Shown: one piece after another, positions 48,899 through 57,891 of the stretch | How the letters are laid out: the number at the start of each line of letters is the position of its first letter | Numbering within the stretch: position 1 is the first letter of the stretch | Assembly: GCA_903856805.1 (NCBI GenBank) | Contig: CAIOCZ010000022.1 | Location: 1-64,000, forward strand | Length of the DNA stretch: 64,000 nucleotides | DNA from: an uncultured cyanobacterium | Lineage (GTDB): Bacteria > Cyanobacteriota > Cyanobacteriia > PCC-6307 > Cyanobiaceae | Direction of reading: 5' to 3' | Made by a program: the position numbers and the translations under genes | Notes under the pieces: generated by a model | What the model was told of the DNA's origin: nothing | Database searches by the model: none | Seen by the model: the letters and a program-made list of their open reading frames with translations, nothing else

Positions 48899-49738
48899 TC
48901 AATGCCGCCGATCTGTTGCATCCACGCGCTGCCGCAACTTGGCGAGGGCGCGCTGTTCATGCCGTTGAACTTTGTATTGGCTCAGCCCTGTTTCGCGGGA
49001 CACGTCTGCGAGGGAGCTTTTCTGTTCCTGGAAATAGCGTAAATCGAGGATTTGCCGCTCCAGTCTCGAGAGCTGCTCCAGTTGGGCGTGTAACCACCGG
49101 TAGTCCTCCGGCAGCAGCGGTTCGCGGCCGTCGCTGATCCAATCGAGCAGGGTGCCGCGCCCCTCATCGTGCCCGCAGTCCCGATCCAGGGGCACCAGTT
49201 GCCGCACCCGCAGGGCCGCCAGGGCCCGCTCCAACCGCCGCGGCGGCACCTCCAGGGCCACGGCCAGCTCGGCCGTGGACATCGCTGTTCTCGCCTGTTG
49301 CCGCATCTGGTTGGCGCGGGCCGCCAATTCCAGTAGGGGATTGGGCACCCGGATCAGGTGGCCGTGCTCCTGGAGATGGTTCTGCACCGCCTGTTGAATC
49401 CACCAGTAGCCGTAGGTGGAAAAGCGATAGCCGCGGCTGGGGTCGAAGCGTTGCACCGCCTGGATCAGGCCGATGTTTCCTGCCTGAATCAGATCCATGG
49501 CGTCCTGCTGAAGATGGGCGATCCGGCGTTGATGGCGCAAACTGATGGAAATAACCAGGCGCAGATTGGCGCGAATCATCCGCTGCATGGCCCGCCGGCC
49601 CCGCCGTTCCAGGATCGCATCGTTGTTCAGGGCTGATTTCCAGCGTTGGACCAGGGTGCCGAGATGGATTTCCTCCGCTGGAGTTAGCAGCGGAATGGCG
49701 CGAACTGATCTGATGTAGTCGCTGTAGGCATCGTTCAT
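48899..49738 (-). CDS. Sigma-70 family sigma factor, group 2-like (left flank)
   Basis: RNA polymerase sigma factor of the alternative cyanobacterial type. Region 2 is DLIQAGNIGLIQAVQRFDPSRGYRFSTYGYWWIQQAVQNHL, preceded by DAYSDYIRSVRAIPLLTPAEEIHLG (region 1.2). Region 4 is LSRLERQILDLRYFQEQKSSLADVSRETGLSQYKVQRHEQRALAKLRQRV. There is no region 1.1. It is 279 residues. It lies downstream of the leader-peptide gene at 49913 on the same strand, after a strong terminator. Confidence 0.93.
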   Translation of the reverse strand: MNDAYSDYIRSVRAIPLLTPAEEIHLGTLVQRWKSALNNDAILERRGRRAMQRMIRANLRLVISISLRHQRRIAHLQQDAMDLIQAGNIGLIQAVQRFDPSRGYRFSTYGYWWIQQAVQNHLQEHGHLIRVPNPLLELAARANQMRQQARTAMSTAELAVALEVPPRRLERALAALRVRQLVPLDRDCGHDEGRGTLLDWISDGREPLLPEDYRWLHAQLEQLSRLERQILDLRYFQEQKSSLADVSRETGLSQYKVQRHEQRALAKLRQRVDATDRRH

Positions 49739-49855
49739 GCGCCGCAGTTTCTTAGCCGCAGTGATCCTGAACCTTCAGTCCCTGTTTTCGCTTTTTCATG
49801 GCGGATCTGCTGCACTTTTGATGTAGAAAATCTCTTGTGTCAGGGTATGGCCAGC

Positions 49856-49880
49856 AAAAAAGCCCGCCAACTGGCGGGCT
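49856..49880 (-). terminator. Strong rho-independent terminator
   Basis: On the minus strand the perfect eight-base stem AGCCCGCC/GGCGGGCT with a four-base loop is followed by a run of six T. It lies about 33 bases after the stop of the leader-peptide gene at 49913, so it ends that transcript before the sigma factor gene. Confidence 0.9.
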
Positions 49881-49912
49881 GCTGCATCGTTTCCCCAGGG
49901 GGATCCGCTTCC

Positions 49913-50140
49913 TTAGCAGGTGTAAGCCTTGGCCAGCTTGGTGTAGTCGAGGGCAATCTCCTTGATGTCCTCAGCTTTGGCCATCAGATCATCGCCGAGG
50001 GCACAGACTTGCTTGAGGTTAACCAGGCAATTGGTCGAGGCAACGATGTGGTGAAGCCCTTTGGGGCCACGACCATGGCCACCGCTGAGGCTGGCCTGGT
50101 CGGCGTCACTGAGAAACTGCAGGGAGATGGTGGAGGTCAT
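49913..50140 (-). CDS. Double-glycine leader peptide (putative exported peptide precursor)
   Basis: 75 residues, MTSTISLQFLSDADQASLSGG then a core HGRGPKGLHHIVASTNCLVNLKQVCALGDDLMAKAEDIKEIALDYTKLAKAYTC. The leader LSDADQASLSGG matches the pattern of double-glycine leaders cleaved by C39 peptidases, and aligns residue for residue with the leaders of the two peptides at 52939 and 53282. The core has three cysteines and a helical C-terminal half. ATG at 50140 preferred; track TTG at 50146. It is divergent from hsp20 (149 bases) and ends in a strong terminator. Confidence 0.7.
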   Translation of the reverse strand: MTSTISLQFLSDADQASLSGGHGRGPKGLHHIVASTNCLVNLKQVCALGDDLMAKAEDIKEIALDYTKLAKAYTC

Positions 50141-50289
50141 TCGCAAAATTGGCGCGATGGACCTGGCCAGCCTGTGGGCCTCGGCTTGCCCCGTGCGTTC
50201 CCCTCAGCGGCACTGCCACGGTCATGCGTCACCCACCGTTACTCCCGTATCGACTCCATAGGCTGAAATCGTTCCTGGACTTGTTGGTT

Positions 50290-50730
50290 ATGTCTCTGAT
50301 TCGTTGGGAGCCCCTGCGCGACATTGAAGACATGCTCGGGCGTTATGGCCGTTCGATGGGCCTCCCCTTGGCCCGTGGCATGGAGCCGTTTAATAACGGC
50401 GAATGGTGTCCACGGGTGGATATTAGTGAAAAGGATTCCTCTTACACCATCCGCGCTGAATTGCCTGGCGTGAAGCGCGAGGACGTCAAGGTGACGCTTC
50501 AGAACGGGGTGCTCACCCTGGAGGGACAGCGCCGCCATGAGGAGGAGGAGCATGGCCGCCGCTTCCATCGCATCGAGCGCTCCTATGGCAGCTTCGTGCG
50601 CAGCTTCACCTTGCCGGAAGCGGTCGATGCCGACCACCTCTCCGCCCATTTCCACGAGGGCATGTTGGACATCGAACTGCCGCGCATCGCCCAGCCGGAA
50701 ACCCCGGTGGTGGAGGTGCCGGTCAGTTGA
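50290..50730 (+). CDS. Hsp20/alpha-crystallin small heat-shock protein
   Basis: ATP-independent chaperone. The alpha-crystallin domain is WCPRVDISEKDSSYTIRAELPGVKREDVKVTLQNGVLTLEGQRRHEEEEHGRRFHRIERSYGSFVRSFTLPEAVDADHLSAHFHEGMLDIELPR, including the conserved A-x-x-x-N-G-V-L region. ATG 50290 gives 146 residues, normal. It is divergent from the leader-peptide gene and converges on the AraC gene, with its stop overlapping that gene by eight bases. Confidence 0.95.
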   Translation: MSLIRWEPLRDIEDMLGRYGRSMGLPLARGMEPFNNGEWCPRVDISEKDSSYTIRAELPGVKREDVKVTLQNGVLTLEGQRRHEEEEHGRRFHRIERSYGSFVRSFTLPEAVDADHLSAHFHEGMLDIELPRIAQPETPVVEVPVS

Positions 50731-51832
50731 GCGACGGCGGCTCTAGGTCCCGTGCGGGGGCGCCTTCTGGGGCGTCGCTGTTCCGGGGACGCTTGGACTC
50801 GCGCAACAGCTCGGAGGGACGCACCCCGAAGCGACGCTGGAAATCCTGGCTGAAGCTGGCGGCGCGCCGGTAGCCGCAGCTCTGGGCCACGCTGGTGACG
50901 CTGTCGTTGGGTTCGGGCCGCTGCAGTCGGGCTAGGGCGCAGCTCAGCCGCTCCTGGCGCACCCAGCGCATGGGGCTGCAGCCAAACCGTTCCTGAAAGG
51001 CGTAATGCAGACCGCGGCGCGAATAGGAGCTGAGTCGCTCCAGGTCAGTCATGCTAATCGGCTCATTGAGATGGGTGCGCACCCAGTTGAGGGTGGCCTC
51101 AAAGGATTCGCGGCCGCGGCGCAGGCGATGCTGCAGCCGCTCCAGGCTGTCGGGGGCCACGGCCTCCGGCACCAGCAGCGCCCCCAGCAGGCGATAGATC
51201 TGATCGTCGATCTGGAGGGCAGTCAGCAGGGCCGGATCGGCGTGGAGCAGTTGATCGGTGAGGGCAAGTAGGCCGTGCAGGGCCCCCAGCAGGCCGGCGC
51301 TGGGGGGATCGCCGGCCAACCATTGGCTGGGCCGTTGCACGGCCGTCCGCAGCTGGGGGGGGCACTGGCGCCAGCCGGCCATGGCCTGGGTGGTGGTGAT
51401 CAGGCGCTCGGGATCCAACCGCAGCACCAGGCCCGCGGCATGGTTGGTGTGCAGCCGATGGGCGGCATTGGGGAGATAGGTGCAGGATCCGGGCCGGCTG
51501 AACCAGCTGGCGCCGTCGTGATCGATCCGCTGCAGGCCATCAAAACCGAGGTAGAGACAGCTGATCGGTTGCTCATCGAAGCGGGCGGTCGTGGGGGAGG
51601 AGGCCAGGGCGAACAGCCCCAGGGAGCTGGTGTGGATCAGCCGATGCCGACACCACCAGGCCTCGGCCGGACCAATCGGCGCAAACTCCGTCAGGGGCAG
51701 GAGCCGGCTGAGGTCGCGGCGGGTGGCCGGGGGGGCGGCCGTGGCGCTGAGGTGGCTGGCAAGGGGATGGTGGAGGCGGTGGCCGTCGGGCCCTTCCACC
51801 ACCGGTGCTTCCGGGGTGGCCCGATCGTTCAT
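50723..51832 (-). CDS. AraC family transcriptional regulator
   Basis: 369 residues. The C-terminal AraC DNA-binding domain with two helix-turn-helices is clear: LNWVRTHLNEPISMTDLERLSSYSRRGLHYAFQERFGCSPMRWVRQERLSCALARL and SVTSVAQSCGYRRAASFSQDFQRRFGVRPSELLRE. The N-terminal 250 residues are a probable sensor domain with no recognised motif. Its start overlaps the ribbon-helix-helix gene by ATGA, so the two are translated together. Confidence 0.92.
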   Translation of the reverse strand: MNDRATPEAPVVEGPDGHRLHHPLASHLSATAAPPATRRDLSRLLPLTEFAPIGPAEAWWCRHRLIHTSSLGLFALASSPTTARFDEQPISCLYLGFDGLQRIDHDGASWFSRPGSCTYLPNAAHRLHTNHAAGLVLRLDPERLITTTQAMAGWRQCPPQLRTAVQRPSQWLAGDPPSAGLLGALHGLLALTDQLLHADPALLTALQIDDQIYRLLGALLVPEAVAPDSLERLQHRLRRGRESFEATLNWVRTHLNEPISMTDLERLSSYSRRGLHYAFQERFGCSPMRWVRQERLSCALARLQRPEPNDSVTSVAQSCGYRRAASFSQDFQRRFGVRPSELLRESKRPRNSDAPEGAPARDLEPPSLN

Positions 51833-52032
51833 GCCCCCTCGCTACTACGGTTGATCTCATCGACGGCGCCTTCTAGCAGAAAGGCACTGAGGTTGGAGAG
51901 GGAGCGCCCTTCGTGGTCACTGCGGCGCAGCAGTTCCTGGTAGAGGCCGTGGGAAATCGTCACGCTGATCCGAACCGGATGGCGCGCCATCACCCGCTGG
52001 GGCTGCTCATTTTGCAAATTCTGTAGGGCCAT
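51829..52032 (-). CDS. Ribbon-helix-helix (CopG-like) regulator, copy 1
   Basis: 67 residues: MALQNLQNEQPQRVMARHPVRISVTISHGLYQELLRRSDHEGRSLSNLSAFLLEGAVDEINRSSEGA. The beta strand RISVTI then two helices with RSLSNLxAFLLExA are CopG-like. It shares GRSLSNL(S/C)AFLLE(G/E)A with the divergent copy at 52508. I use ATG 52032; the track's 169-residue version extends into the spacer. It overlaps the AraC gene by four bases. Confidence 0.78.
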   Translation of the reverse strand: MALQNLQNEQPQRVMARHPVRISVTISHGLYQELLRRSDHEGRSLSNLSAFLLEGAVDEINRSSEGA

Positions 52033-52507
52033 GCGTTTTTGAGTGGGGTAGGAAATTTGGCTTCGCAATGGCAGATACGCCAGCGGTACGAAGCAAGTAT
52101 GCCGCTCAGTGCTGGTGGAAAACTGAGCTTCTGTTTGCATTGTGCGCTTTGCGATCGATCCTGCGTAAAAGACTTCCAACGCGAATTGAATTTGTCCGTT
52201 GTGCGACTGGGTATTTGCACCCCTTGTTAGGAGTTGCGCTGAATGAATTTGCGCCAATGTGGACAAGTCTGCTGCAGGTAGGGTCGTCTGCGCGCCATAA
52301 TCGTGATGCGTCAAGAAGCTTCCGGTTTTTATTTTCATCGCCTTTTAATTATTTGTGGGAATCTGAAGGCGGCAGATGCGCATCATCCAGTGGCGTTGTT
52401 GAAGGTCTTCATATACTTTGAACATCCAATGGGGACGAAGGGAAGCATTCCTGCTGCCCGTCTGTTGTTCCTGCTGTGATGCTCCTTTCCCCGACTGCAA
52501 TGAGACA
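52033..52507. promoter_or_regulatory. 475-base spacer between two divergent RHH genes
   Basis: This spacer is less GC-rich than its neighbours and has no convincing gene; the track's 117-residue ORF at 52068 (+) has no recognisable features. It should contain promoters for both RHH genes. I see no obvious perfect operator repeat. Confidence 0.4.
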
Positions 52508-52810
52508 ATGAATGATCGGATCAGGGTGTTGCAACGCCAGCCGCGACGCATCTCCATCACGTTGAGCTATCAGGTCCACCAGGCTCTGCTCACCCGTTCC
52601 GAGGAGGAGGGGAGGTCGTTGTCTAATCTGTGTGCCTTTCTCCTGGAAGAGGCCCTGCGGGATGCCACCCGGATGGGACTGGACATTCCCGCGCGGGCCC
52701 CGGCCCAGCCCATGGCCATGAAGCACGAGGCCTTCCGGGCCGACCCGCTGCGCTCCGATGGACTGCGGGGCGAGATGAGCCGTGTCGATGGTCATCGGGA
52801 TCGGCGCTGA
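52508..52810 (+). CDS. Ribbon-helix-helix (CopG-like) regulator, copy 2
   Basis: 100 residues: MNDRIRVLQRQPRRISITLSYQVHQALLTRSEEEGRSLSNLCAFLLEEALRDATRMGLDIPARAPAQ. The RHH core is RRISITLS plus EEGRSLSNLCAFLLEEAL. A charged tail (LRSDGLRGEMSRVDGHRDRR) follows. ATG 52508; the track's longer start at 52418 is less likely. It is divergent from copy 1 and lies 128 bases upstream of the first leader peptide, so it is the obvious candidate regulator of the export genes. Confidence 0.8.
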   Translation: MNDRIRVLQRQPRRISITLSYQVHQALLTRSEEEGRSLSNLCAFLLEEALRDATRMGLDIPARAPAQPMAMKHEAFRADPLRSDGLRGEMSRVDGHRDRR

Positions 52811-53281: not shown

Positions 53282-53464
53282 ATGCAGACCCTCACTGATT
53301 CTCAATCCGCAGTCGTTCAAGGTGGTGGGAAACTCGCCACAATTAATTTGAACGTCAGTCCCACAACCGTTGTGATTCCCCAGGTCAATGCCGGGGCTGC
53401 TGTTGCTATTTTTGGAGCTCGAGCCACCCTGCTCCAGGGCAATTTCGCTGGCGTGAAGGCCTGA
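53282..53464 (+). CDS. Double-glycine leader peptide (putative exported peptide precursor)
   Basis: 60 residues. Leader MQTLTDSQSAVVQGG; core GKLATINLNVSPTTVVIPQVNAGAAVAIFGARATLLQGNFAGVKA. The leader aligns with those at 52939 and 49913. The core shares QxNxGAAxAxxG(x)RAxLxQxNxAxV with the first peptide, so the two are paralogues. No cysteine. A weak ribosome site precedes ATG 53282. The exporter begins 10 bases after its stop. Confidence 0.78.
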   Translation: MQTLTDSQSAVVQGGGKLATINLNVSPTTVVIPQVNAGAAVAIFGARATLLQGNFAGVKA

Positions 53465-53474
53465 GCCAGAATCC

Positions 53475-55706
53475 ATGGCGAGCCCTGTGGTGGTGACCTT
53501 TTTCTCGCTCCAGTTGCGCCGACTCGGTCGTGTTTTGCGGCCCCGTCGTCGCCCCCCCTGCGTGCTTCAGTATGACGCTGAGGACTGTGGTGCCGCCTGT
53601 CTCGCCACCATCTGCCAGACCCACGGCCAACGCCTGCCCCTGGCGCTCGTGCGCCAACGGGTGGGCACCTCCGCCCAGGGCACGACCCTGTTGGGCCTCA
53701 AACGTGGGGCCGACAGTCTTGGCTTTCAGGCCCGGCCCGCCAAGGCTGAACCGTCCGTGCTCGATCATCTTGAACAGGTTCCCCTGCCGGTGATCTGTCA
53801 CTGGCGCGGTAACCATTGGGTGGTGCTGCACGGCCGCCAGGGCAACCAGCTGCTGGTGGCCGATCCCTCCATGGGGCTGGTGCGATTGGATCGCAAAGCC
53901 TTCCTGGCCGGTTGGGATGACGGTGTGCTGCTGCTGCTCGACCCTGATCCCCTGCGCTTCCCCCCGGATCTTTCCGGCGACACTGTCACCCCATCAGCCC
54001 AGGGTCTCTTGGCCTTGGGCCGTTATGTGTTGCCATTTCGTCGTTTACTGCTGCAGGCTTTTGGCCTGAATTTATCCATCGGCTTTCTGGCCCTGGGGAT
54101 GCCGCTGCTGATGCAGATCCTCACCGATGACGTGTTGGTGCGGGGCGACGATCAGATGCTGATCAGTCTTTCCCTCGGCATCATGATGATGTTTGTGATG
54201 CGGGGCCTGCTGGAACTGCTGCAGGGAACCCTGGTGGGTCACTTCGGCCAGAAGGTGCAGTTGCAGATGATCCTGCACTATGGCCGCCATCTGCTGCAAT
54301 TACCGCTCAGTTATTTCGAAAGTCGTCGCAGTGGCGAGGTGGTGAGTCGCCTCGAAGATATCCAGCAGATCAATAAGCTCGTGGCCCAGCTGGCCCTCGG
54401 CCTGCCTGGTCAGTGCTGCATCGCCCTGGTCTCCTTGCTGTGGATGTGGACCTACAGCAGTGGCCTCACCCTGGCCGCGTTGGTGGGCTTTGGCCTCGTG
54501 ATCGGGGTCCAGGTGGTGGCGTTGCCCGCTCTCCATCGGCGCACCCAGGGATTGGTGGTGCAATCCGCCGATAACCAGGGGTTCCTGGTGGAAGTGTTCC
54601 GGGCCGCCACCCTGCTCAAAACCACTGAGGCCAGTGAACAGGCCTGGCAGCAGTTTCAGCGGGATTTCGGCCGCCTCGCCAATCTCTCCTGGACCGTCGG
54701 GCTGCTGGACCTCAAGCTGTCCTCGGTCACCGGGCTGCTGGGCAGCCTCACCAGCATCGGCTTGCTCTGGTACGGCAGTTCCTTTGTGCTCGCCAAGCAG
54801 ATGAGCATCGGCCAGTTGCTGGCCTTTAACGGCATGGGCAGCAATGTGCTGGTGTTCCTGGCTGCCATCGGTGGCCTCAGCCAGGAGCTGATCACCTCCC
54901 AGGTGGTGATGCGCCGCCTCAATGATGCCCTGGAGCATCCGGTGGAGGCCAGCGGCAACGCCCCGCGCCAGGAGGCCACCCTCAACGGCGACGCCGACAT
55001 CGTCTGCCGGGGGGTCACCTTTCACCATCCCGGTCGGCTGGCCCTGCTCGATGACCTCAATCTGCGCCTTCCCGGTGGGTTGACCACGGCGCTGATCGGC
55101 GAATCGGGCTGTGGCAAGAGCACCCTCACCAAGCTGATTGCTGGCCTCTATCCCTTGCAGCAGGGATCCATCGAGTATGGCCCCTTCAGCAGTCGGGATC
55201 TTTCCCTCGCCTGCCTGCGGCGGCAGGTGGTGCTGCTGCCCCAGGAGGACACCTTCCTCAATCGCTCGATCTTCGACAATTTTTTGTTTGCCTACCCCTG
55301 GCTCAGCTTCGATCAGGTGGTGAATCTCTGCCAGCTCACCCTGGCCGACGAGTTCATCCGCGACCTTCCCAATGGCTACGGCACGGTGTTGGGGGAATTC
55401 GGCGCCAATCTTTCCGGGGGCCAGCGCCAACGGTTGGCCCTGGCCCGAGCCCTGGCCAGTGATCCGCCGGTGCTGCTGCTGGATGAATCCACCTCGGCCC
55501 TGGATCCGGTGTTGGAGGCACGGCTGATGGATCGGCTGCTGCACCAGCGCCAGGGCAAGACCACCGTGATGGTCAGCCATCGGCCGGCGGTGATCCTGCG
55601 GGCCGATTGGATCGTGTTCATGGAGCACGGCCGGGTGCGGCAGCAGGACCGTCCCCAGGGTCTCCGCGATCACGTCCTCGTTGCCCCCTACCTCCAGGCC
55701 GCCTGA
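53475..55706 (+). CDS. C39-peptidase-containing ABC exporter
   Basis: Peptidase-containing ABC transporter that cleaves and exports peptides with double-glycine leaders. N-terminal C39 peptidase: Gln32, Cys38 (VLQYDAEDCGAACLA), His114 (GNHWVVLHG) and Asp130 (VADPSMG), all present. A six-helix membrane domain follows (GLNLSIGFLALGMPLLMQI onward), then the ATPase with Walker A GESGCGKST (about 542), LSGGQRQRLALARAL (about 645) and Walker B VLLLDEST. 743 residues, normal. It directly follows the second peptide and abuts the HlyD gene. Confidence 0.95.
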   Translation: MASPVVVTFFSLQLRRLGRVLRPRRRPPCVLQYDAEDCGAACLATICQTHGQRLPLALVRQRVGTSAQGTTLLGLKRGADSLGFQARPAKAEPSVLDHLEQVPLPVICHWRGNHWVVLHGRQGNQLLVADPSMGLVRLDRKAFLAGWDDGVLLLLDPDPLRFPPDLSGDTVTPSAQGLLALGRYVLPFRRLLLQAFGLNLSIGFLALGMPLLMQILTDDVLVRGDDQMLISLSLGIMMMFVMRGLLELLQGTLVGHFGQKVQLQMILHYGRHLLQLPLSYFESRRSGEVVSRLEDIQQINKLVAQLALGLPGQCCIALVSLLWMWTYSSGLTLAALVGFGLVIGVQVVALPALHRRTQGLVVQSADNQGFLVEVFRAATLLKTTEASEQAWQQFQRDFGRLANLSWTVGLLDLKLSSVTGLLGSLTSIGLLWYGSSFVLAKQMSIGQLLAFNGMGSNVLVFLAAIGGLSQELITSQVVMRRLNDALEHPVEASGNAPRQEATLNGDADIVCRGVTFHHPGRLALLDDLNLRLPGGLTTALIGESGCGKSTLTKLIAGLYPLQQGSIEYGPFSSRDLSLACLRRQVVLLPQEDTFLNRSIFDNFLFAYPWLSFDQVVNLCQLTLADEFIRDLPNGYGTVLGEFGANLSGGQRQRLALARALASDPPVLLLDESTSALDPVLEARLMDRLLHQRQGKTTVMVSHRPAVILRADWIVFMEHGRVRQQDRPQGLRDHVLVAPYLQAA

Positions 55707-56990
55707 ATGATGGACGACAGCTCAAGCCTCCAAGTCGGTTCCACTCCCCTTGCCCCCACGCCCAAGGCCGTCGCCCCGCCAGCGGCCATCACCGTGCCGG
55801 GGGCCGTCGCCCCGCCGCCGCCACCGCTCGCCCCGGGCGGCGACGAGTTCCTCCCCGGACCTGGGCCCTGGGCGGCCCAGCTGGGGAAGGCGCTGTTGGT
55901 GTTGATCAGCCTCAGTGGAGTGGCCCTGGTGGTGTGGCCCCTGAACGAAACGGTGCGGTCCAGTGGCGTGGTGCGTCCCGTCGGCGAAAACACCTCGGTG
56001 CAGAGCGAACTGGGGGGCACGGTGGCGGAGGTGTTGCTCCGCCCCAATCAGACGGTGGTGGCTGGCCAGCTCCTGGCGCGCCTGGATGCCAGCACCTATC
56101 TCGACACCCGAATCCAATTGCTGACCGAATTGGCCACCCTGCAGCGCCAGGCCCAGCAGGCCCGGGAGGAGCAACGCTCCCTGGAGGCCCAGGCCCAGGC
56201 CCTGGGCAGCCTTAGCACCGCCCTCACCGAAAGTTCCCGGCGGGGGGTGGACCAGGCCCAGGCCACCCTCGCCTTCGATCGCAGTGAATTGGGCCGCTAT
56301 CGCCAACTGCTGGAGAGTGGCGCCGTGCCCCGCAGTCTCGTGGATGAGAAACAGGCCCGCCAGATGGTGAGCCAGTCGGAGGTGCTCAAGGCGCTGCAGT
56401 CGGTGACCGAGGAGCGGGCCCGGGGCTTGAACGAGCTGGCCCGGCTGCGCCAGTCGGTGAGCCAGGCCCACACCTCCGCCGATGAACTCGACAAGCAGGT
56501 GGCCGAGCGCCGCACCCGGTTGGAGGAGGTGGAACGGGCGCTGCGCCACAGCGAGCTCCGATCGCCCCAGGCTGGATCGGTGCTGAGCACCACCCTGCGC
56601 CACCGCGGTCAGGTGATTCGCTCCGGGGAGGAGGTGGCCGTGTTGGCGCCGCTCAATCAACACCTGGAGGTGAAACTGCAGGTGCCGGCCCGCGACATCA
56701 GCCAGATCCGTCCCGGGCAGCGGGCCATGCTGCGGCTGTCCGCCTGTCCCACGCCGGAATACGGCGTGTTGCCGGCCCAGGTGCTCAGCCTCTCGGCCGA
56801 CACCTTGCCGGCGGCTGAGGGGCGTCAGGGGTCGTTCGAGCTGCTGCTGCGGCCGGAGCGCCGCCAGCTCCAGGGCCGCCAAGGAACCTGCCTGTTGCGG
56901 CCCGGCCTGGATGTGGTGGGCGACGTCCTGACCCGGCGCACCACCGTGCTGATGTATCTGCTGAATAAGTTGCGGCTGGGCACGGCCTGA
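55707..56990 (+). CDS. HlyD-family membrane fusion (adaptor) protein
   Basis: Periplasmic adaptor that links the ABC exporter to the outer membrane. A proline-rich N-terminus is followed by one membrane helix (GKALLVLISLSGVALVVW, about residues 62-84), then biotinyl-lipoyl-like halves (VRSSGVVRPVGENTSVQSELGGTVAEVLLRPNQTVVAGQLLARLD and LRSPQAGSVLSTTLRHRGQVIRSGEEVAVLAPL) around a long coiled coil (about residues 140-280). 427 residues. It starts the base after the exporter stop. The outer-membrane partner is not in this window. Confidence 0.92.
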   Translation: MMDDSSSLQVGSTPLAPTPKAVAPPAAITVPGAVAPPPPPLAPGGDEFLPGPGPWAAQLGKALLVLISLSGVALVVWPLNETVRSSGVVRPVGENTSVQSELGGTVAEVLLRPNQTVVAGQLLARLDASTYLDTRIQLLTELATLQRQAQQAREEQRSLEAQAQALGSLSTALTESSRRGVDQAQATLAFDRSELGRYRQLLESGAVPRSLVDEKQARQMVSQSEVLKALQSVTEERARGLNELARLRQSVSQAHTSADELDKQVAERRTRLEEVERALRHSELRSPQAGSVLSTTLRHRGQVIRSGEEVAVLAPLNQHLEVKLQVPARDISQIRPGQRAMLRLSACPTPEYGVLPAQVLSLSADTLPAAEGRQGSFELLLRPERRQLQGRQGTCLLRPGLDVVGDVLTRRTTVLMYLLNKLRLGTA

Positions 56991-57035: not shown

Positions 57036-57891
57036 ACTCCGGGCTGAGCATGGGGGCGATCTGGCGGCGCAGCTTGAGCAGGGCCTGCTTTTCGATCCAC
57101 TGCACCTGGCCCTTTTTTAGGCCGGTGGCTTCCGCCACCTTGGCCATGGAGAGCGATTGGTCGCGGTTGTAGCGCAACTGGATCACCCGCCGCTCCTGGG
57201 GATTGAGCAGGTTGATCTTGTCGTGCAGCCAGCCGTAGTCATCAACGGGGTTGAGGGCTTGACCATCGCTGATCACATCGATCAGGTTGGATTCGTTGTC
57301 GTCGCCCCCAATGCGTTGATCCAGGGACAACAGATTGCAGCGATGACTGACTTCCAATACGAAGTCAATTCGTTCTTCGCTTTCCCCCAGGGCTTGGGCT
57401 ACATTTTGTTTGGTTAGAGGGGCGGAATTGGCGGCACGGATAGCGGTGGCACGTTTGGCAAGGTCGTTAATGTCTGCAGGAACTTTGATCGTTTGTGTGC
57501 GTTCTCTTAGGTAGCGATTAACCGCCTGTCGAATCCACCAGTAGCCGTAGGTGGAGAAGCGGTAACCGCGGCTTGGATCGAAGCGCTCAACCGCACGCAT
57601 CAGGCCAAGATTTCCAGCTTGTACTAAATCGAGGACGTCCACCTGGAGATGGATGATATGGCGGTTGCGACGCATGCAGATCATCACAACTAACCGCAGA
57701 TTTGCGCAGACCATTCGATGCATGGCTCGGCGTCCGCGCCTTTCCACAGCTCGACTGGGCTCCGTTTGAACCAGCCATTCCTGCACCAGGCTGGCCAGGT
57801 GAACTTCCTCCGCCGCCGTGAGCAGGGGGATGCGACCAATGTTGCGTAAATAGTCGCCGAGAGCGTCTTGCATCGATGACCTGTTTAACAA
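57034..57891 (-). CDS. Sigma-70 family sigma factor, group 2-like (right flank)
   Basis: Second alternative sigma factor, 285 residues. DALGDYLRNIGRIPLLTAAEEVHLASLVQEW (region 1.2), DLVQAGNLGLMRAVERFDPSRGYRFSTYGYWWIRQAVNRYLRER (region 2), DINDLAKRATAIRAA-type region 3, and RRVIQLRYNRDQSLSMAKVAEATGLKKGQVQWIEKQALLKLRRQI (region 4). It is related to the copy at 48899. The two sigma genes flank the peptide-export island. Confidence 0.94.
   Translation of the reverse strand: MLNRSSMQDALGDYLRNIGRIPLLTAAEEVHLASLVQEWLVQTEPSRAVERRGRRAMHRMVCANLRLVVMICMRRNRHIIHLQVDVLDLVQAGNLGLMRAVERFDPSRGYRFSTYGYWWIRQAVNRYLRERTQTIKVPADINDLAKRATAIRAANSAPLTKQNVAQALGESEERIDFVLEVSHRCNLLSLDQRIGGDDNESNLIDVISDGQALNPVDDYGWLHDKINLLNPQERRVIQLRYNRDQSLSMAKVAEATGLKKGQVQWIEKQALLKLRRQIAPMLSPE

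Follow-up and report, generated by a model that had tools for sequence, protein, structure and literature searches.

The locus analysed here raises the question whether a short gene that stands apart from an exporter and its two linked peptides, on the opposite strand, encodes a further cargo of the same machinery, and whether more cargo of this kind is scattered through the genome. The gene, termed P3, was found in a 64,000-nucleotide stretch of DNA from an uncultured cyanobacterium, which was analysed as a whole and is called the window. With moderate confidence, we posit that P3 is a genuine, strain-specific precursor that is transcribed separately and cut by a C39 peptidase after Gly21, with its core being secreted via the neighboring exporter A (possibly via a second one, exporter B). 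The relevant features of the window are as follows:

48899 to 49738, minus strand: sigma-70 family factor, oriented like P3 and following its terminator
49861 to 49880, minus strand: intrinsic terminator of P3, between P3 and the sigma-factor gene
49913 to 50140, minus strand: P3, putative double-glycine precursor, ATG start, 75 aa
50141 to 50289: intergenic region of 149 bp, from which P3 and hsp20 diverge
50290 to 50730, plus strand: hsp20, encoding a small heat-shock protein and diverging from P3
50723 to 51832, minus strand: AraC-family regulator
51829 to 52338, minus strand: second RHH-domain protein
52508 to 52810, plus strand: small CopG/RHH-like protein, upstream of P1
52939 to 53127, plus strand: P1, linked double-glycine precursor with a Gln/Asn-containing core
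53282 to 53464, plus strand: P2, linked double-glycine precursor whose core is of the P1 type
53475 to 55706, plus strand: exporter A, with Peptidase_C39, ABC membrane and ATPase domains
55707 to 56990, plus strand: HlyD-family periplasmic adaptor

The translation of P3 consists of a leader of 21 aa, MTSTISLQFLSDADQASLSGG, and a core of 54 aa, HGRGPKGLHHIVASTNCLVNLKQVCALGDDLMAKAEDIKEIALDYTKLAKAYTC. The core has a mass of 5.84 kDa and contains 7 Lys/Arg, 6 Asp/Glu and three cysteines (Cys38, Cys46 and Cys75). A helix at residues 29-72 was predicted by single-sequence AF2 with a pLDDT of 48, which is very low confidence, and Foldseek found no match for this model. We therefore make no structural claim for P3, and describe the core as probably helical only in the sense of this prediction. 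The terminator hairpin (49880-49861, minus strand) follows the stop codon after 32 nt and has an 8-bp stem, in which 7 of 8 pairs are G-C, and a 4-nt loop, followed by the T-run TTTTTGCTGG. A previous sequence-only reading had described a leader peptide beside hsp20, on the opposite strand and 2.8 kb from the other two, with its own strong terminator and a different, three-cysteine core with a helical end. The reading frame, the hairpin and a core unlike those of P1 and P2 were all confirmed, the helix being that of the AF2 model. The same reading spoke of unlinked cargo, which does not fit the map, since P3 lies just 3.3 kb from exporter A (the 2.8 kb refer to P1, the nearer of the two peptides).

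In the intergenic region upstream of P3 (50141-50289), no sigma-70 consensus promoter was found. An obvious Shine-Dalgarno sequence was not seen upstream of P3 either, and no 8-mers are common to the upstream regions of P3 and of P1 or P2. Neither an immunity gene nor a modification enzyme could be seen near P3. The catalytic Cys/His/Asp motifs of exporter A are intact (DCGAAC, HWVVL, ADPS), and the gene content at 48.9-57.9 kb comprises HlyD and a C39-ABC transporter of the short type, with neither a peptidase-less second ABC transporter nor LanM alongside. Two paralogous sigma-factor genes (49386-49611 and 57521-57746) in the same orientation and 8,135 bp apart enclose the block of P3, hsp20, AraC, RHH, P1, P2, exporter and HlyD. 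A long inverted repeat between P1 and P2 (53121-53191; 35-nt arms, 77% complementary, 1-nt gap) is perhaps a terminator or a processing hairpin.

The assignment of P3 as a precursor depends on its leader, which follows the pattern L-S-D-x5-L-S-G-G. Exactly three reading frames of the window, P1, P2 and P3, start with ATG, carry the strict leader motif and have cores of 20-90 aa, where 0.09 would be expected per 64 kb of order-2 Markov sequence. A leader HMM trained on 52 precursors from related loci, from which P1-P3 were all left out, scored P1 at 21.5, P2 at 15.9 and P3 at 9.8 bits, with the next reading frame of the window at 5.6 bits. Scores of at least 9.8 bits were reached by 1 of 58,847 ORF starts in order-3 Markov sequence. 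Among 834 kb of real sequence, all hits above 9.4 bits were precursor-like and the first clearly spurious one had 8.7 bits. When seven leaders were used in a leave-one-out comparison, P3 ranked first of 454 ATG starts besides the training members (E 0.09). Over ten residues, the P3 leader (DADQASLSGG) also matches that of the precursor adjoining a related exporter in G035 (DADAACLAGG). As P3 is second only to P1 and P2 in an independent leader HMM and stands above all other short ORFs of the window, its sequence is probably that of a genuine C39 (double-glycine) precursor. The asserted match to the leaders of P1 and P2 thus holds, little above noise. Judged by sequence, it is real and the weakest of the three. 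It is also marginal, because the genome-wide profiles A2 and A3, which were built without P3, did not recover it at their thresholds; it has Ser before the hydrophobic residue where most leaders carry Glu, and it is 3 residues longer.

This marginal leader leaves room for the reading that P3 is translated but is no C39 substrate, with a leader that is coincidental and a helical protein that stays inside the cell, perhaps acting with hsp20 or the sigma factor. We regard this as unlikely, although it deserves more weight than the other alternatives. It would agree with the leader, which ranks lowest in the set and is missed by profiles built without P3, and also with the core, which is unlike all of the more than 50 linked cargoes of the exporter family. 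Against it, a frame with motif, ATG and short core is rarely expected in random sequence and this one is located next to an exporter, and just a single random start equals its leader score.

Relatives of P3 were searched for at several levels. The 41 other genomes of the genus contained none, nor did GTDB contigs, phages and viral contigs or the 20 loci with related exporters. A 400-genome sample of the family gave chance-level hits only, many of them with E 0.01-1 in unrelated frames, a judgement based on those hits that were inspected. Pfam, NCBIfam and PHROGs contained no family for P3 (Pfam and NCBIfam at E<=1), including the NHLP and Nif11 (N11P) leader models. The PDB sequence hits, solely pectate lyase at E 0.21, were dismissed as chance. 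In two genomes where hsp20 is similarly located upstream of the exporter (G225 and G288), a different gene and no P3 counterpart lies beyond hsp20. Given the lack of relatives in related loci and this different gene, P3 is, as far as these sequence comparisons go, a strain-specific addition. Conservation as a protein in related genomes, the lack of which the sequence-only reading had named as refuting its idea, was not observed. This is a weak test for fast-evolving cargo, but orthologous loci do contain relatives of P1 and P2 (37-42% identity) and none of P3.

Relatives of exporter A with 57-76% identity occur in other genera of the family (20 loci, L160-L179). In 17 of them, between one and four short double-glycine precursors, in most cases two or more, are located immediately upstream on the same strand. 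Their cores are mostly N/Q-rich and of beta type with a consensus like VGQxNxxNNLGLG...NAxSxQxN, and some contain AFNI or AINI beside N/Q runs (NQINLAFNIVLNGGSIVNNQLNG). Five of these precursors were compared with NCBIfam and had no match. From their sequences, exporter and precursors look like a family-wide, EbfG-like secreted system that is possibly amyloid-forming. An hsp20 gene is found near the orthologous exporters in 5 of the 20 loci. Across genera, a CopG/RHH-like protein (56-88% identical) and a multi-copy sigma-70 family factor, often along with hsp20, are encoded again and in varying order at distances of up to 8 kb from the exporter (L160, L162, L165, L167, L173, L175, L177), with AraC in two, and these neighbors may regulate the exporter. 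Near related exporters, we also observed proteins with C39-type leaders at L153 11025-11393 (Nostoc plasmid NZ_CP151101) and at L154 5274-5642. The former is annotated as beta/gamma crystallin-related, which suggests a larger folded cargo.

Set against such mostly beta-type, N/Q-rich and EbfG-like cargo, P3 might represent a cargo swap, in which a strain-specific helical Cys peptide gained a double-glycine leader and thereby joined the exporter. We consider this scenario doubtful. If true, one PteB-like machine would secrete matrix peptides together with a structurally unrelated and separately regulated peptide, for example a modulator of matrix assembly or a competitor-directed peptide.

Two IUPAC leader patterns gave 43 in-frame matches in the whole genome, 6 of which passed the filter (start 12-35 codons upstream, core 20-90 aa). 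Four are convincing precursors with an ATG start, namely P1, P2, P3 and C120:9681, the last consisting of MEIFASLSDLQAELLCGG followed by the Lys-rich core KKGKKKK... Two weak candidates, on C137 (GTG start) and on C148 (within a 193-aa frame), were rejected, as were orphan leader candidates within long frames, for example LTDNNLEVTGG on C32. In this genome (G000; loci L140 and L042), contig C120 ends with the same 141 bases with which C92 begins. This overlap joins the Lys-rich C120:9681 precursor (KKGKKKKSKSS...) to exporter B, a second C39 system with HlyD, and exporter B on C92 is the only other C39 exporter of the genome. A third exporter-like hit, on C18, had no C39 match. The Lys-rich precursor resembles those of G008 and G001. 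Each of the four convincing precursors is thus no more than 4 kb away from one of the two C39 exporters, and precursors on the opposite strand beside exporters are also found in G008, G001 and on C120 itself. With C120:9681 linked to exporter B and P3 to exporter A, the genome contains no unlinked precursor at the sensitivity of this pattern and profile scan, which misses leaders ending in GA or atypically spaced ones. The leader scan that the sequence-only reading had proposed for finding further orphans thus yields one additional precursor, which is linked, and P3 provides no evidence for a hidden, scattered cargo set in its own genome. The general idea of unlinked cargo fares better elsewhere. 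A leader profile applied to 16 genomes gave 29 hits, of which 27 adjoin a C39 exporter. Of the remaining two, one lies within a 2506-aa frame and was discarded as chance. The other is in the relative G247, where two adjacent convincing double-glycine precursors on the 211-kb contig C23 (L202 / L206, about 22.8-23.5 kb) have no C39 exporter within 20 kb, and the exporter of this genome is on C4. This pair is likely unlinked cargo, in agreement with the precursors distant from their clusters that were already mentioned by Wang et al. (2011; PMC3140520).

The presence of another C39 exporter, accompanied by a Lys-rich precursor, allows for the reading that P3 is a substrate of exporter B (C120/C92) and not of exporter A. 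The P3 leader resembles leaders located by other exporters (G001, G035) at least as much as those of P1 or P2. However, P3 lies close to exporter A and is absent from the contigs of exporter B, and the leaders of both systems overlap, so that sequence cannot decide. We find exporter B as the sole route improbable; proximity is the one argument by which exporter A is favoured, with exporter B as the alternative. Very improbable is a locus that is not protein-coding, but gives rise to a terminated small RNA, forms the 3' part of some other transcript or carries just an open frame antisense to the plus-strand ORF at 49835-50266, since the complete lack of conservation, the strong terminator and this second open frame are outweighed by a codon score of 0.23 for the P3 frame (the top of six frames, against 0.00 for the antisense frame), a GC3 of 0.74 against 0.61, and G+C contents of 0.58/0.41/0.74 at the codon positions of P3, which is the coding pattern usual for genes in the window.

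In the reading that we prefer, P3 would be transcribed alone from the hsp20 intergenic region, with transcription ending at its own terminator. The leader would dock on the C39 peptidase domain of exporter A (possibly also on that of exporter B), the C39 domain would cleave behind Gly21, and the core of 54 residues, which contains Cys and is probably helical, would leave through the ABC-HlyD conduit. We infer that the core then most likely is a small secreted peptide whose place of action is the cell surface or the matrix, or else a competitor-directed or signal peptide. If true, the cargo of EbfG/PteB-type C39 exporters in cyanobacteria would include structurally unrelated peptides that are controlled separately. 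The context outweighs the orphan in its use, as it offers a family-wide system in which the exporter and short N/Q-rich precursors repeatedly have an RHH regulator, a sigma factor and hsp20 as neighbors.

Among known systems, the closest counterpart is EbfG1-4 and PteB of the unicellular cyanobacterium Synechococcus elongatus PCC 7942, where small proteins with a GG motif are exported by a C39 peptidase-ABC transporter (PMC4997328, PMC9981879) and support biofilm formation (PMC4997328). The hotspot A[F/I]NI[G/S] has been reported for EbfG proteins, of which EbfG1-3 behaved as amyloids (PMC9981879). Judged against this published motif, P1, P2 and their relatives resemble EbfG in that their cores are N/Q-rich and include stretches like AFNI, AINI or QANIG: P1 has QANIG, and AFNI or AINI, which come close to the hotspot, occur in the related loci. 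The P3 core, in contrast, lacks the hotspot, and P3 is a divergent, separate gene, whereas the EbfG genes form one operon beside pteB. EbfG/PteB may therefore be taken as an analogy for the export route of P3, not as a family to which it belongs. By gene content, the locus also resembles the group III clusters of Wang, Fewer and Sivonen (2011; PMC3140520), which have a short-type C39-ABC transporter with HlyD and no peptidase-less second ABC transporter. These clusters contain several short double-glycine precursors each, 3.9 on average, with almost no conservation of the core (PMC3140520). Compared with them, P3 is on the opposite strand and 3.3 kb away from the exporter, which is within the 20-kb range of that search. 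With class II microcins and double-glycine bacteriocins, P3 shares the GG leader, the short core and a dedicated C39 exporter with HlyD, but it has neither a recognised immunity gene nor a homologue. Prochlorosins, which are also cited in PMC3140520, are lanthipeptides made with LanM, and one processing system serves unlinked precursors. P3 shares with them only the idea of one machinery for precursors located elsewhere, as it is itself linked in cis, and the LanM domain PF13575 had no match in its genome, nor in the control genomes. Taken together, these comparisons make P3 a plausible, putative extra cargo of a known export system that is PteB/EbfG-like and similar to group III of Wang et al.
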